From positions 1 to 22,355 of the IMG/VR virus record IMGVR_UViG_3300024520_000527: DNA of 22,355 nt. One strand, 5' to 3'. Shown here one piece after another: positions 13,507-20,898 of the stretch. How positions within the stretch are numbered: the first letter of the stretch is position 1; each line of letters opens with the position of its first letter. The translations under genes and the position numbers were made by a program. This DNA is from a virus. A model generated the notes under the pieces. That model was not told the origin of the DNA. It saw only the letters and a list, made by a program, of their open reading frames with translations, and did no database searches.

Positions 13507-13643
13507 CTAAGAAATGCCCTCACTGTAAAGAGCCATTGGTGTCACTGCGCAGCATTGGTAAGAAGCTGTGCAGTGGCTGCAAACAGTATTGGCCGTTTAA
13601 CCTTAAGCCATCGCAGAAACCTTTACACCAACATACGCGATAA
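13503..13643 (+). CDS. Small zinc-ribbon protein
   Basis: The 46-residue protein starts at the ATG at 13503, overlapping the previous stop as ATGA. It has CPHC (Cys5, Cys8) and CSGC (Cys23, Cys26), a complete four-cysteine zinc site, followed by KQYWPFNLKPSQKPL. Small proteins with this two-knuckle layout and a tail of NLKxxQKPL kind occur in other phages, but no function is known to me. It may bind nucleic acid or a host protein. Confidence 0.65.
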   Translation: MTKKCPHCKEPLVSLRSIGKKLCSGCKQYWPFNLKPSQKPLHQHTR

Positions 13644-13660
13644 CCTATACTCCGAACATT

Positions 13661-13673
13661 GTGCCGGTGGCAC
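13661..13673 (+). other. Short triloop hairpin ahead of the methyltransferase gene
   Basis: GTGCC and GGCAC pair around GGT, 18 bases after the stop of the zinc-ribbon gene and 26 bases before the methyltransferase ATG. The CC-GGY-GG top matches two longer hairpins ahead of the scaffold and capsid genes. Confidence 0.35.
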
Positions 13674-13698
13674 TCTAAACTATTCCGGTGGGGTAATA

Positions 13699-14904
13699 AT
13701 GAACGAATATACAACGAGGCAGGTCGGCGACCTATTGCCTTATGTGAACAACTCACGGACGCATTCAAGCGACCAAGTGGCGCAAGTAGCCGCCAGCATT
13801 AAAGAATTCGGCTTCACCAACCCCATACTGATTGATGAGCAGAACGGCATTATAGCCGGTCATGGCAGGCTGTTAGCTGCTCAAAAATTAAGCATGGCCG
13901 AAGTTCCCTGCATTGTTTTAGCCGGATTAACCGATGCACAGAAAAAGGCTTATGTGATTGCCGATAACCAACTGGCCTTAAATGCAGGCTGGGATTTAGA
14001 CGCACTGAGGCTTGAGGTTGAGCACCTGCAAGAGGTTGATTTTGACGTTGGCCTGCTTGGCTTTGAAGATGAGTTTATCGATGGGCTGCTAGAGGATGAG
14101 CCTATGGATGGACTAACAGACGAGGACGAATGCCCAGAACCACCAGAACAGCCGGTAAGTGTATTGGGCGACGTATGGCAGCTTGGCAACCACAGGCTTA
14201 TGTGCGGCGATTCAACCAGTATTGATGCGGTTGATAGACTTATGGATGGTAATTCAGTAGATATATTGTTTACTGACCCGCCTTATAATGTGGCGTTTAA
14301 TGGCCGTAGCGGTAAGCACGATATAATAAAAAATGATAATTTGAGCGATGGCGATTTCGGCTCATTCATTGATAATGTGATACAGACAATCAAAACAATA
14401 GACCCGCCTGTTTATTATATCTGGTGCAATTGGAAATTTTACGGGATATTGCAGGAGACCCTCGAATATAAGAGCTGTATCGTGTGGGCTAAGAATGTGT
14501 TTGGTATGGGCAACGGTTATCGCCATCAGCATGAATTTTGTTTATATAACGGAAAGATCGACGGCCATATAAAAAACGAGTCTGACTTGTGGGAGGTCAA
14601 GAAAGATCATGCCTACGTTCACCCAACGCAAAAGCCGGTTGCGCTAAGCGTGAGAGCATTCAGTAACCATATTAAGCAAAAAAACGTCCTTGATTTGTTT
14701 GGCGGTTCAGGTTCGACCCTGATAGGCGCAGAAGAAACAAACCGCAATGCCTACCTAATGGAGCTAGACGAAAAGTACGTTGATGTAATTATAAAGCGCT
14801 GGGAAGCATTCACAGGTAAAGAGGCTGTTCACATAGAAACAGGCAAAACATACCGCGAATTAGCTATATCAAAAAATATCGATATAGATGGCGAGGTGGC
14901 ATAA
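13699..14904 (+). CDS. ParB-like domain fused to a DNA methyltransferase
   Basis: The 401-residue protein starts at the ATG at 13699 with GGTGGGG ahead; a longer frame from 13555 lacks support and overlaps another gene. Residues about 1-95 form a ParB/Srx-type domain with LLPYVNNSRTHS and GIIAGHGRLLAA (50-61). The second part is a DNA methyltransferase: TDPPYNV (motif IV, Asp193-Tyr196), HPTQKP (308-313) and DLFGGSGST (332-340, S-adenosylmethionine loop), with motif IV before motif I as in the beta class. DPPY suggests N6-adenine methylation, though N4-cytosine is possible. ParB-methyltransferase fusions are common near phage terminase genes and may mark DNA before packaging or protect it from host enzymes. 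No partner nuclease is present. Confidence 0.92.
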   Translation: MNEYTTRQVGDLLPYVNNSRTHSSDQVAQVAASIKEFGFTNPILIDEQNGIIAGHGRLLAAQKLSMAEVPCIVLAGLTDAQKKAYVIADNQLALNAGWDLDALRLEVEHLQEVDFDVGLLGFEDEFIDGLLEDEPMDGLTDEDECPEPPEQPVSVLGDVWQLGNHRLMCGDSTSIDAVDRLMDGNSVDILFTDPPYNVAFNGRSGKHDIIKNDNLSDGDFGSFIDNVIQTIKTIDPPVYYIWCNWKFYGILQETLEYKSCIVWAKNVFGMGNGYRHQHEFCLYNGKIDGHIKNESDLWEVKKDHAYVHPTQKPVALSVRAFSNHIKQKNVLDLFGGSGSTLIGAEETNRNAYLMELDEKYVDVIIKRWEAFTGKEAVHIETGKTYRELAISKNIDIDGEVA

Positions 14905-15407
14905 TGGCTAAAGCGGGCCGCCCAGCGCTCGAGATAACCGAGCAGGTATGCAAAAAGGCTGAAAAGCCCACCCTCGAGAAGAAAGCCCCGGCCAAGAAAA
15001 TGGCGGCAGCTAAAAAGAAGCCAGCCGCTAAAAAGCCAGCCGCCAAGCGCGGGCGCGGTCGGCCTAAGTGGGTGCCGTCTGAGAAAGAAATACAACAAGC
15101 GCAGCAATTAGCCGCCCAAGGCCTTACTGTTGAGCAGGTTGCCCGCTCGCTAGGCGTGGGCGCGACTGCTTTCTTTGAGCGCCAGCAGGAATACCCCGAA
15201 TTAATGGAAGCGATGTTGAACGGCAGGGCTAAGGGCGTGGCCACTATATCCAACGCGCTATTTGTAAAAGCTAAGGGCGGCGATAATACGGCGATGATTT
15301 TTTACCTAAAGAACCGCGCGCCTAATGAGTGGAAAGACCGCGTGGAGCATACAGCGCCGCCCACAGCACCCATTAGAATCAATATCACAAGAGCAGTGCG
15401 TAAGTGA
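14904..15407 (+). CDS. Terminase small subunit-like protein with a lysine/alanine-rich insertion
   Basis: The 167-residue protein lies directly ahead of the large terminase subunit. Residues about 59-112 hold the typical small-subunit DNA-binding region: SEKEIQQAQQLAAQGLTVEQ, then VARSLGVGATAFFERQQEYP, an HTH-like segment, and then ELMEAMLNGRAKG. Before it sits a lysine- and alanine-rich stretch (about 26-50, KKAPAKKMAAAKKKPAAKK) like histone H1-type tails, ending in the AT-hook-like KRGRGRPK (48-55). The N-terminus repeats a GRP start (MAKAGRPALEITEQVCKKAE), which in this family usually begins the domain. A DNA-binding extension may have been inserted or the start duplicated. TAATG junction with the methyltransferase gene. 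It recognises the packaging site in the usual model. Confidence 0.82.
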   Translation: MAKAGRPALEITEQVCKKAEKPTLEKKAPAKKMAAAKKKPAAKKPAAKRGRGRPKWVPSEKEIQQAQQLAAQGLTVEQVARSLGVGATAFFERQQEYPELMEAMLNGRAKGVATISNALFVKAKGGDNTAMIFYLKNRAPNEWKDRVEHTAPPTAPIRINITRAVRK

Positions 15408-17958: not shown

Positions 17959-19036
17959 GGCTCCAGAGCAAACCATAGAGGCCGAAACCCGTCATAGCGT
18001 GTTTGTTAATCGATACGCTGGCGGGTTATCCAATGATTTCGTGCCGTTCCTTGAAAGGCTAGGGCGTGATATTGATAGCCGCCTAGCTAAAGAGGGTGCG
18101 ACTATCGCGAGTGCTGCAAGGCTTAGGGCTTTGAATAAAGACGTTCGCGAATTGCAGGCTGAGATATACGCCAGCTATCAAGAGTCGTTATTTGATGATC
18201 TCGAAGGCTTCTCAGAGCATGAGGGTGAATTCGAGCATACCCTGCTAGGCAAGACGGCACCGACCTACGATTTCGACCTACCCTCCACCACCCAGCTATG
18301 GAGCGCTTCAAAGGCTGTCCCGTTGGTATTGCCTGCTACTGAGACTGCTAAGTTTTTAAACCCGTTTATTAAAGATTGGTCGAAGACTGAGATTAAAAAG
18401 GTTAATGACCTGATTCAGTTCGGCTTTGCTCAGGGGCAAACTATTGATGAAATGACCAGGGCGGTTAATCAACGGCTAGGCAAGCAAACAAAGGCCAACA
18501 ATAAAGCGGTGGTACGTACTGCGGTAAACCATACATCGACAACCGCCCGTGAGCGCACCATGCGAGAGAACGACGATATAGTGGTGGGCTATAAGATTGT
18601 GGCCACACTGGACAGCAGAACGTCCGATGTGTGCAAGGGCTATGATGGCCTAGAGGTCAAGTGGTCGGACAGCAACCACCCCCGGCCCCCGTTCCATCCC
18701 AATTGCCGAACCACTACAGCGCCTCTATTAGATGAGCGGTTTTCAGCTAAGGACGAGGATGGCGTAAGGGCAAGTACCGGCGCACAGGGTGGCCAGCCTA
18801 CCAAGGCCGACCAAACCTATTACGAGTGGTTAAAGAACCAGGGTAGCACTAAGGGTGGGCGCGAGTTTGTGTTTGAAACGCTGGGCAATGACCGGGGCAA
18901 GCTGTTACTAGATGGCGGGTTAACATCGGATAAGTTTAAGAAACTAACCACTGATGATCTATTTGCGCCCATAACCTTAAAAGAATTGAAGAAAAAGGAC
19001 TCACTTTCTACAGCTTTCGACAAGGCTGGTATATAA
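17951..19036 (+). CDS. MuF-like minor head protein
   Basis: The 361-residue protein carries the Mu F C-terminal pattern: VVRTAVNHTSTTARERTM (about 187-204), then DSRTSDVCKGYDG (221-233) and PFHPNCRTTTAPL (247-259), the metal-binding-like HPNCR motif of this family. Such proteins stay at the portal inside the head and may help DNA injection. The start is TTG at 17951, backed by GGCGGGGA about nine bases ahead and an 8-base overlap with portal; no ATG or GTG near it gives the N-terminal helix. The last 75 residues beyond the MuF region have no toxin domain I can recognise. Confidence 0.88.
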   Translation: MAKAPEQTIEAETRHSVFVNRYAGGLSNDFVPFLERLGRDIDSRLAKEGATIASAARLRALNKDVRELQAEIYASYQESLFDDLEGFSEHEGEFEHTLLGKTAPTYDFDLPSTTQLWSASKAVPLVLPATETAKFLNPFIKDWSKTEIKKVNDLIQFGFAQGQTIDEMTRAVNQRLGKQTKANNKAVVRTAVNHTSTTARERTMRENDDIVVGYKIVATLDSRTSDVCKGYDGLEVKWSDSNHPRPPFHPNCRTTTAPLLDERFSAKDEDGVRASTGAQGGQPTKADQTYYEWLKNQGSTKGGREFVFETLGNDRGKLLLDGGLTSDKFKKLTTDDLFAPITLKELKKKDSLSTAFDKAGI

Positions 19037-19046
19037 TTCCCAACGA

Positions 19047-19065
19047 GGCTTACCGGCGGTAGGCC
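19047..19065 (+). promoter_or_regulatory. Triloop hairpin in the scaffold gene leader (copy 1)
   Basis: GGCTTACC pairs with GGTAGGCC around a GGC loop (8 pairs, one of them G-T). It begins 11 bases after the MuF stop and ends 22 bases before the scaffold ATG. The same shape with compensating base changes is found ahead of the capsid gene. Confidence 0.55.
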
Positions 19066-19070
19066 ATAAT

Positions 19071-19082
19071 CTTAAAAGGTAA
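19071..19082 (+). promoter_or_regulatory. Ribosome-binding leader of scaffold, shared with the capsid gene
   Basis: CTTAAAAGGTAA precedes the scaffold ATG by five bases and recurs without change at 19898-19909, six bases ahead of the capsid ATG. AAAGGT is the likely ribosome-binding element. Confidence 0.55.
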
Positions 19083-19087
19083 TAACC

Positions 19088-19786
19088 ATGCTTACGTATA
19101 AAATTGACGGTGAACAACTGGCGGCGCTAGATGATAACCTCAAATCACTCTATAAAGAAAAGGACGGCTTTCATTTCTTAGAGGTAGAGGGCGCAACGTC
19201 TAAAGATAAAATTGATGAGTTCCGCACGAACAATATAAGCCTTCAAGACCAGCTAAAAAAGTTCGATGGCGTTGATTTAGATAAATATACAGCCCTGCAA
19301 GAAACAGAGCGCAAGCTGCGTAACAAAGAACTCATTGATAAGGGTGATTTTGATACCTTATTAAAAGAGCATACCAATACCATGCAAAGCGATTTCACCG
19401 GCAAGCTATCCGTGGCACAGGCACAGATTGACGAGCTAACCGGCAAAAACAAATCAATGGTAAATCGTTATGAGATCGAAGGCGCAGCACAAAAAGCATT
19501 CTCGGCAAACCATATCCGCCCAGAGGCGCAAGCTGCAATCATGGCGCAAATTAAAAGCACCTTCACCGTCAATGGCGAATCAGTCGTTGCAATGGAAGGC
19601 GACAACATAATGACCGGGGCCGATGGTAACCTTACTGTAAATGAGTTCGTGAGCGCACAGCCTGAGTTTATGAAGGTGCCCAGTGAGGCCGGTGCAGGCA
19701 GTGGTAGCGAGAGCAGTACCCCCGCTGGTGGCGACAAATTAGCGGCCAAAAGGGCGGCAGTTGCAAAGCTCGTAGGCAAGGGCTAG
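19088..19786 (+). CDS. Capsid scaffolding protein
   Basis: The 232-residue protein sits just before the capsid gene and has the scaffold shape: a charged, coiled-coil-like region (about 35-125, with NNISLQDQLKKFDGVD, ALQETERKLRNKEL, VAQAQIDELTGKNKSM), a middle region with QKAFSANHIRPEAQAAI, and a low-complexity Gly/Ser C-terminal segment (GAGSGSESSTPAGGDK), ending in a basic tail with KRAAVAKLVGKG. Phage scaffolds often bind the capsid protein through such a basic C-terminal helix and leave before DNA fills the head. There is no protease motif. ATG at 19088 with AAAGGT ahead. Confidence 0.82.
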   Translation: MLTYKIDGEQLAALDDNLKSLYKEKDGFHFLEVEGATSKDKIDEFRTNNISLQDQLKKFDGVDLDKYTALQETERKLRNKELIDKGDFDTLLKEHTNTMQSDFTGKLSVAQAQIDELTGKNKSMVNRYEIEGAAQKAFSANHIRPEAQAAIMAQIKSTFTVNGESVVAMEGDNIMTGADGNLTVNEFVSAQPEFMKVPSEAGAGSGSESSTPAGGDKLAAKRAAVAKLVGKG

Positions 19787-19804
19787 AATACCACTACATA
19801 CGAA

Positions 19805-19823
19805 AGGTTACCGGCGGTAATCT
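19805..19823 (+). promoter_or_regulatory. Triloop hairpin in the capsid gene leader (copy 2)
   Basis: AGGTTACC pairs with GGTAATCT around a GGC loop (8 pairs, one G-T). It begins 19 bases after the scaffold stop. Outer pairs differ from copy 1 in a way that keeps pairing. Confidence 0.55.
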
Positions 19824-19830
19824 ACTTTTG

Positions 19831-19879
19831 CGGCGCAAGAGATTAGTATTAAAAACACTATTCCCTATGCGCCGTTTTT
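19831..19879 (+). terminator. Terminator-like hairpin between scaffold and capsid genes
   Basis: CGGCGCA (19831-19837) pairs with TGCGCCG (19868-19874), followed by TTTTT (19875-19879). The 30-base loop holds a small inner stem, TAGT with ACTA (19844-19847 and 19857-19860). It may be a partial terminator or an RNA element in the capsid leader, since the capsid must be expressed strongly beyond it. Confidence 0.5.
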
Positions 19880-19915
19880 GGCTTTAGGGGTCAAAAACTT
19901 AAAAGGTAAATTATC

Positions 19916-20854
19916 ATGGCTACTCAAACATTAGCCCAAGCGGGCCTACACATTAGCGACGAGATTGTAAGCGGCGTTGTTGAAGACATTATCACCACTA
20001 ACCCTATCTGGAATGTAATGCCTTGGACTGGTTACGCTGGTCAAGCAATTCTAGTTAACCGCGAGGACGTATTGGGCGACGCTCAACACTTAGCGATTGG
20101 CGGCACCATTACTGCTAAAGCTCCTAGCGAAGCGGTACAAACTCCATTCACAGCAGTTACCACTCTCGGTGATGCTGAAATGAATGGCTTGGTTCAAGCG
20201 CAATCATTGTCCGGCGGTGTCGATCAACTTATGGCTGAGATTACCTCAAAAGCTAAAAGCGTTGGTCGCTTATTGCAAGCGGGCATGGCTACAGGCACAG
20301 GCACTAGCCCAGAGCTGCATTCAATGCACACTTTGTGTGATGCTTCGCAGTACACCACAGCGTCGGCTGGACAAGCGTTATCGTTTGAGCTGTTAGATGA
20401 GTTGCTTGATTTAGTTAAGGCCAAAGATGGCGAGGTTGATTTCTTGCAAATGCCAGGGCGTACACTTCGCAGCTACCGCACCTTAGTGCGTGCATTGGGC
20501 GGCGTTAATGAAACTATGGCATTCGATATGGGTAACGGTCGTTCACGCAACGTCGATACTTATAACGGTATCCCAATGTTCCAAAACGATTACTTGTCAG
20601 TAGCTGAAACTGCTAACGGCGCGGCATTAACGGGTGGCGCATTAGCCTCTGTTTACGCTGGCTGTTTCGACGATGGCACTAGCAAGATTGGCGTTTCAAT
20701 GATTCACCCCGAAGGCGTACCCGTTGGCGTAGCAGTTGAAAACGTTGGCGTGGCAGAAACTAAAGATGAGTCGATCACCCGTGTTAAATCTTACAGTAAC
20801 TTTGTAAGCTTCAACCGCCGTGGCCTTGCTCGCTTGCCTTCAATTAGCAACTAA
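19916..20854 (+). CDS. Major capsid protein (HK97-fold type)
   Basis: The 312-residue protein lies after scaffold and before head-completion genes, the usual place of the major capsid protein. The sequence fits the HK97 fold seen in capsids without a protease domain: an N-terminal helical arm (residues 1-30), an alpha/beta middle with LLDELLDLVKAKDGEVDF and PGRTLRSYRTLVRALGG (about 178-194), then GIPMFQNDYL (about 219-228) and a beta-rich C-terminus with YSNFVSFNRRGLARL. Small residues are frequent, as usual in capsids. The ATG at 19916 has AAAGGTAA ahead. A strong terminator follows, which matches the need for high expression of this gene. No propeptide is evident. Confidence 0.9.
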   Translation: MATQTLAQAGLHISDEIVSGVVEDIITTNPIWNVMPWTGYAGQAILVNREDVLGDAQHLAIGGTITAKAPSEAVQTPFTAVTTLGDAEMNGLVQAQSLSGGVDQLMAEITSKAKSVGRLLQAGMATGTGTSPELHSMHTLCDASQYTTASAGQALSFELLDELLDLVKAKDGEVDFLQMPGRTLRSYRTLVRALGGVNETMAFDMGNGRSRNVDTYNGIPMFQNDYLSVAETANGAALTGGALASVYAGCFDDGTSKIGVSMIHPEGVPVGVAVENVGVAETKDESITRVKSYSNFVSFNRRGLARLPSISN

Positions 20855-20871: not shown

Positions 20872-20898
20872 AGGCGGGGTACACCCCCGCCCTTTTTT
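20872..20898 (+). terminator. Strong rho-independent terminator after the capsid gene
   Basis: GGCGGGG (20873-20879) pairs with CCCCGCC (20885-20891) around TACAC and is followed by six T (20893-20898). It begins 18 bases after the capsid stop. Downstream head genes continue in the same direction, so it would set capsid output above that of later genes. Confidence 0.85.

Follow-up and report, generated by a model that had tools for sequence, protein, structure and literature searches.

On balance, we think that a group of tailed phages carries a conserved family of 5′-leader RNAs that gates translation of the head genes, access probably being set by a loop-reading factor, for which the scaffold protein is the favoured candidate. 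As judged from sequence comparison, these leaders share a module of predicted hairpins with a central-G triloop (C-NGN-G in the clade of the phage studied here), the first of which probably lies at or near the mRNA 5′ end. In terminase small-subunit leaders and most scaffold leaders, the loop or 3′ arm of a second predicted hairpin contains the SD. In leaders of the major capsid gene (MCP), hairpin 2 is predicted to alternate with a long helix, whose formation releases an arm that can pair with the SD.

The analysis started from a partial viral genome of 22,355 nucleotides (IMG/VR record IMGVR_UViG_3300024520_000527, positions 1 to 22,355; hereafter the window), in which the longest open reading frame is 758 aa. 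Its relevant features are collected in Table 1. An earlier note on this DNA had described two hairpins of 8 pairs with a GGC triloop, ahead of genes that it named scaffold and major capsid. Both hairpins are present, each with one G-U among its 8 pairs, and both names are borne out by PHROG matches. The note was also right that the outer arms differ and still pair: from the first hairpin to the second, pair 1 goes from G-C to A-U and pair 3 from C-G to G-U, both sides having changed. Pair 4 (U-G to U-A) is changed on one side, and the inner pairs are identical. Taken alone, two copies in one genome could be called a duplication. Overlooked were a further hairpin at 19825-19841, a tandem pair at 13661-13695, the upstream −10 boxes and the alternative folds.

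Table 1. Genes, promoter-like boxes and predicted RNA elements of the window
Feature	Positions	Strand	Remark
Sigma70-like promoter, TTTACA-18-TATACT	13622-13651	+	10/12 in a consensus scan; such matches are overall no commoner than in shuffles
Module 1 distal hairpin, GTGCC-GGT-GGCAC	13661-13673	+	
Module 1 proximal hairpin, TATTCC-GGT-GGGGTA	13681-13695	+	holds SD; ATG at 13699
ParB-N/DNA methylase gene	13699-14904	+	opens packaging operon
Terminase small subunit gene	14904-15407		phrog_309; after methylase gene
−10 box TATAAT, scaffold leader	19032-19037	+	9 nt upstream of hairpin
Scaffold leader hairpin, GGCTTACC-GGC-GGTAGGCC	19047-19065	+	positions −41 to −23
Scaffold gene	19088-19786	+	phrog_206, E 1.8e-21
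−10-like box TAGAAT, MCP leader	19784-19789	+	
MCP leader hairpin 1, AGGTTACC-GGC-GGTAATCT	19805-19823	+	
MCP leader hairpin 2, CTTTTGC-GGC-GCAAGAG	19825-19841	+	loop as in hairpin 1
State B helix, CGGCGCA with TGCGCCG	19831-19837 with 19868-19874	+	excludes hairpin 2
Hairpin 4 of state A, CCCTA...GCC-loop-GGC...TAGGG	19862-19890	+	constrained fold
MCP SD, AAAAGG	19901-19906	+	state A: unpaired; state B: largely paired
Major capsid gene (MCP)	19916-20854	+	phrog_212 (major head protein), E 2.6e-38

Both hairpins of the note fold as drawn, with z scores of −2.2 (scaffold leader), −2.3 (two-hairpin piece of the MCP leader) and −3.3 (whole MCP leader); the 44-nt piece of module 1 is no more stable than its shuffles (z −0.4). 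Unlike in most scaffold leaders, the scaffold SD of the window lies outside any hairpin. Just 3′ of the capsid gene, at 20873-20891, is a strong intrinsic terminator (GGCGGGGTACACCCCCGCC then TTTTTT); together with the −10 box and the leader, it makes the MCP its own transcription unit. In the packaging operon, the terminase small subunit is followed by the terminase large subunit, the portal and a MuF head protein, and the first hairpin begins 9 nt from the end of the −10 box.

Relatives were collected by a capsid-protein search, which gave 30 viral contigs; further scans brought the number up by about 100 loci, a few re-fetched ones included, of which 19 came from genome contigs. The window and its relatives supplied 42 scaffold and MCP leaders, in which we counted 70 perfect triloop hairpins against 7.3±2.7 in dinucleotide shuffles, and 55 C-NGN-G triloop hairpins where 0.26 were expected (maximum 2). 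The latter count excludes chance. The 70 triloops include AGT (15), GGT (13), GGC (7), AGC (7), AGA (6), TGT (5) and GGA (1), while the stems are nearly all different, with pairing preserved. Scanning the intergenic parts of nine relatives' whole contigs for C-NGN-G hairpins led to the scaffold, MCP and terminase small-subunit genes, with few other matches. In nine contigs, these leaders held 35 of the 84 such hairpins found on both strands, a density about 140-fold that found elsewhere. At one further locus (L075, on the minus strand of G003 at 31723), a 121-aa gene (phrog_32847) is preceded by one long hairpin, AGCAGCTGTTGC-AGT-GCAATGGTTGCT, and is possibly a fourth target beyond the head genes.

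Wherever relatives possess an MCP leader, its layout is uniform: a −10 box is followed in order by hairpin 1, hairpin 2 (AGC-RGY-GCT), the stem GAT...ATC, the hairpin GGC...GCC, the SD and the ATG. DNA is inserted between scaffold and MCP in L021 (2517-3197) and L009, where the leader remains with the MCP, and in L023 (4281-4863), where an int-alpA RNA and an extra open reading frame stand between scaffold and MCP leader. This int-alpA RNA (RF02996, 39.7 bits, L023 4281-4346) was the only match of the Rfam 15 covariance models above the gathering score; the window had none, and neither had the leaders of 14 relatives. A different loop type, for instance C-TAA-G or C-AAG-G (L017, L024, L146), occurs in the scaffold leaders of L017, L019, L022, L024, L146, L150 and L164, examples being AATCGTTAGGCGATT, GGC-TAA-GCC and CCC-AAG-GGG over the SD. 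The capsid proteins of this group are still about 71-74% identical to that of the window.

The earlier note had suggested that the structure is under selection, and a covariation check in related phages, carried out with simpler statistics than R-scape, agrees with it. In a sequence-based alignment of 17 MCP leaders, hairpins 2 to 4 showed 27 double-change cells against 8.2±2.6 when shuffled (at most 6 with partners slid), and the scaffold SD hairpin showed 11 double changes against 4.7±1.5 (14 leaders, AGAGG class), results that are inflated by the fact that shuffle nulls ignore relatedness. Hairpin 4 alone gave no significant covariation. Compensated changes are also seen between close pairs of leaders: the SD hairpins of L193 and L196 read ATGACT-GGA-GGTCAT and ATGATC-GGA-GATCAT, and hairpin 2 of L170 and L195 has arms ACAGC/GCTGT and ACGAC/GTCGT. 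Scaffold leaders of the L003, L011, L012 and L013 type have their first hairpin in the final codons of the upstream gene (Tyr-Pro-Thr-Ala-Trp-Gly or similar, read from the leader sequences), and part of the pairing may there be dictated by the protein sequence; in L012 the encoded residues differ and pairing is kept. Relatives without the hairpin, which the note had held to count against selection, do exist in the form of one group that lacks the entire MCP leader, with a scaffold-MCP gap of 8-18 nt. Most of this group keep triloop hairpins in the scaffold leader. Of the functions that the note had put forward, control of ribosome access and a binding site for a putative RNA-binding protein are the best fits.

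Among 43 scaffold leaders, 28 have their SD within a C-NGN-G hairpin, for 0.1 expected from shuffled sequences. Relatives' terminase small-subunit leaders consist of hairpin 1, 4-9 nt, a hairpin with the SD as loop and 3′ arm, and the ATG (for example AACGTTTAC-AGT-GTAGGCGTT, then TATAGC-GGA-GTTATA, then ATG); the second hairpin covers the SD in all five such leaders found, and module 1 of the window has the same layout. The terminase proteins behind these leaders fall into at least two PHROG families (phrog_606 and phrog_51); the 98-aa protein behind the G002 leader had no PHROG match and takes its terminase name from its position.

For the 3′ arm of hairpin 2, MCP leaders offer a second possible partner in the 5′ arm of hairpin 4, and the two would then join through a long helix that includes hairpin 3. 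Pairs of this helix numbered 235 of 253, against 207±4.6 with arms swapped between leaders, and 154 of 161 against 138±3.1 outside hairpin 3; none of 5000 swaps reached the observed value in either case. With a fixed alignment, 19 double changes were scored against 8.4±1.9. When the long helix forms (state B), the SD (AAGGTACA) becomes the partner of the 3′ arm of hairpin 4 (...TGTGCCTT), with 98 of 115 outer pairs against 88.7±2.4 in the swap test, an effect that is weaker in a thinned set (32/5000). As in a bistable SD-sequestering leader of the riboswitch-like expression-platform kind, the MCP leaders have two conserved helices that exclude each other, and one of them results in sequestration of the SD. 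When 23 MCP leaders were folded under constraint, every one of them had its whole SD paired in state B, and state A left the SD mostly free. State B is usually the more stable by 4 to 17 kcal/mol (L025 is reversed), and the lowest-energy state sequesters the SD in nearly all 23. For the window leader the values are −18.2 for state A, with the SD free, and −25.2 for state B, where most of the SD is paired. With hairpin 2 held in silico, SD access rose in 23 of 23 leaders, slightly in most: the median SD unpaired probability went from 0.005 to 0.02 at equilibrium, and that of the window, folded from hairpin 1 on, from 0.18 to 0.51. The equilibrium effect being small, the direction that we infer for the MCP switch, towards which this modelling points weakly, would depend on co-transcriptional kinetics or on some further contact.

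More distant phages of the YuA type carry a related element. Their scaffold and MCP leaders contain G-NGA-Y triloops (equivalent to GNGAY pentaloops), often in tandem, with 31 such hairpins against 0.6 expected in 44 leaders, several of which have none. The distant set comprises YuA, PaMx28, DLP4, Ab18, RcSimone-Hastad and genome-contig loci binned to several phyla, with capsid proteins about 40% identical; the hosts assigned to metagenome bins are uncertain, and L118 and L123 nearly duplicate leaders of the CN1 and YuA types. HHU4 is of the first clade's type, with TACTTC-GGA-GAAGTA over the scaffold SD and TTCCTC-GGT-GAGGAA before the MCP. In five YuA-type MCP leaders (L036, L037, L040, L043, L045), minimum-energy folds join the 5′ flank of the first hairpin to the pre-SD stretch, for example GGCAGAGG with CCTCTGTT. 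This long-range pairing is possibly a second version of the switch in these predicted folds; a partner-swap test of the SD-sequestering helix in YuA-type leaders was not significant (50/500).

We weighed several rival explanations. The hairpin sequences are inverted repeats near −10 boxes, as would be expected of DNA operators for a transcription factor at late promoters. Half-sites differ, however, between copies in one genome. When the three innermost pairs and the loop were taken as an anchor and stem positions 4-6 were scored, we found 25 G-U (U being in the 5′ arm in 23 of them), 9 A-C, 125 Watson-Crick and 24 further combinations; G-U exceeded A-C (25 versus 9, p 0.009) and loop motif anchors numbered 65 on the sense strand versus 3 on the antisense strand. 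We conclude from the last two results that the hairpins are RNA, not DNA, and with the variable half-sites they rule out a DNA operator for almost any practical purpose. As for the −10 boxes, the first hairpin usually starts 3-15 nt (mode 8-9) past the box, an exact TATAAT is found at most 24 nt upstream of it in 18 of 33 cases (1.7 expected), and a match of at least 5/6 in 32 of 33 (14.4 expected). This spacing places hairpin 1 at or near the transcript 5′ end, if these boxes are used. With the usual 7-9 nt the stem would begin at about +1 to +3, and the first hairpin might be a 5′-terminal stabiliser that shields late mRNA from 5′-end-dependent decay with no dedicated binding protein. We consider this unlikely, as it leaves unexplained the shared loop (central G, C-G closing), the SD hairpin and the MCP switch, and some scaffold hairpins sit inside the end of the upstream gene, without a −10 box.

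Promoter-proximal tandem hairpins, present in the leaders studied here though not in all scaffold leaders, also recall the put RNA of phage HK022, which acts on RNA polymerase. Two hairpins immediately after a phage promoter, and a strong intrinsic terminator after the MCP, are what one would look for if polymerase read them to become terminator-resistant. To this idea we give little credence: here the second hairpin overlaps the SD, the loop rather than the stem is conserved, and some modules have no nearby −10 box. Folding alone might instead slow initiation at head genes, for instance as a kinetic or temperature-dependent gate. Sequestration of the SD in SD hairpins and in the lowest-energy folds of nearly all 23 MCP leaders speaks for such a gate, which we nevertheless judge rather improbable; it predicts neither one loop rule in hairpins that do not cover the SD nor a different rule in another clade. 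Complementarity of the loops to the 16S rRNA 3′ end was also considered and rejected: by inspection it fits YuA-type GGTGATCC hairpins, but AGT, AGC, GGC, CGA and AGA loops do not fit.

The reading that we favour remains control of translation by a factor that recognises the loops. The RNA fold would restrain ribosome access to the head genes, and such a factor, bound to the hairpins, would set that access. Its binding would block translation of scaffold, terminase and methylase, and on the MCP message the bound factor would keep hairpin 2 in place, to the advantage of the open form. As candidate, a head protein present in all these phages would be likeliest, scaffold first, in which case scaffold binding would lower its own synthesis and favour that of capsid. 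Scaffold is preferred because self-repression and capsid activation together would balance the two proteins, and because of the precedent of phage P22, an argument of logic only; a host factor could also be the reader. All scaffolds tested belong to one family, phrog_206: scaffold is shared by sequence in 8 of 10 contigs, and those divergent scaffolds that were tested hit this profile too. Common to all 10 contigs were the portal, the MuF head protein, a head-tail adaptor and the MCP only, and no small phage-encoded RNA-binding protein common to all was found among them. A structure model of scaffold (mean pLDDT 74) had no known-fold match and gave no RNA-binding clue. Between the portal and MuF genes, G001 (23284-23460, minus), G003, G004, G005 and G009 encode a CxxC zinc-ribbon protein of 55-59 aa; none was seen in the window. 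In its most extended form, the proposal would have one head protein, most simply free scaffold, read the triloops of three operons; a build-up of unassembled scaffold would shut its own and packaging translation and open that of capsid, with the state of assembly setting the scaffold:capsid ratio through one RNA code that persisted from the window's phage group to YuA-type phages under clade-specific loop rules. We offer this form as speculation that may well be wrong.

In 1985 Wyckoff and Casjens reportedly described autoregulation of the P22 scaffolding gene at a post-transcriptional level, and such feedback is the behaviour that operators in the scaffold leader would give. We know of no hairpin operator of the C-NGN-G kind in P22, where, to our knowledge, the RNA target of autoregulation is undefined. 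Here, by contrast, terminase and capsid genes share the element, and autoregulation is hypothetical. The coat proteins of MS2 and Q-beta bind translational operator hairpins. As in those phages, short hairpins are found overlapping or next to gene starts (the window's scaffold SD being outside its hairpin), and a structural protein that reads the loop and controls translation is putative here; the differences are a tailed DNA phage, hairpins in tandem, a central-G triloop and several target genes, with putative binding. Terminase and scaffold leaders, with one hairpin upstream and one over the SD, resemble the dual-site leaders of CsrA/RsmA. These require GGA in the loop, and its presence in only 1 of 70 triloops rules out a CsrA/RsmA target. 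The hairpin promoters of the N4 virion RNA polymerase likewise have a short stem and a 3-base loop with a central purine and C-G closing; they are single-stranded DNA read by a giant polymerase, whereas the present hairpins lie 3′ of ordinary −10 boxes and their G-U pairs mark them as RNA.

Operator hairpins, SD sequestration and bistable leaders are known logic; what appears to be new is this hairpin family, together with its loop code and the set of genes that it targets. In the open-access literature we found no description of the hairpin element, an account in a subscription journal being possible, and an article on the evolution of Mesyanzhinovviridae (PMC11946847) mentions neither promoters nor hairpins.

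How tailed phages match the amounts of scaffold, capsid and packaging proteins is an old question. The compact RNA element described here lies at exactly those genes and combines a loop code with a hairpin over the SD and a switch that sequesters the SD. The element is also found in cultured phages (YuA, RcSimone-Hastad, HHU4), and the question is thus directly testable. If a head protein does read the hairpins, the two would make a new RNA-protein pair of practical use.
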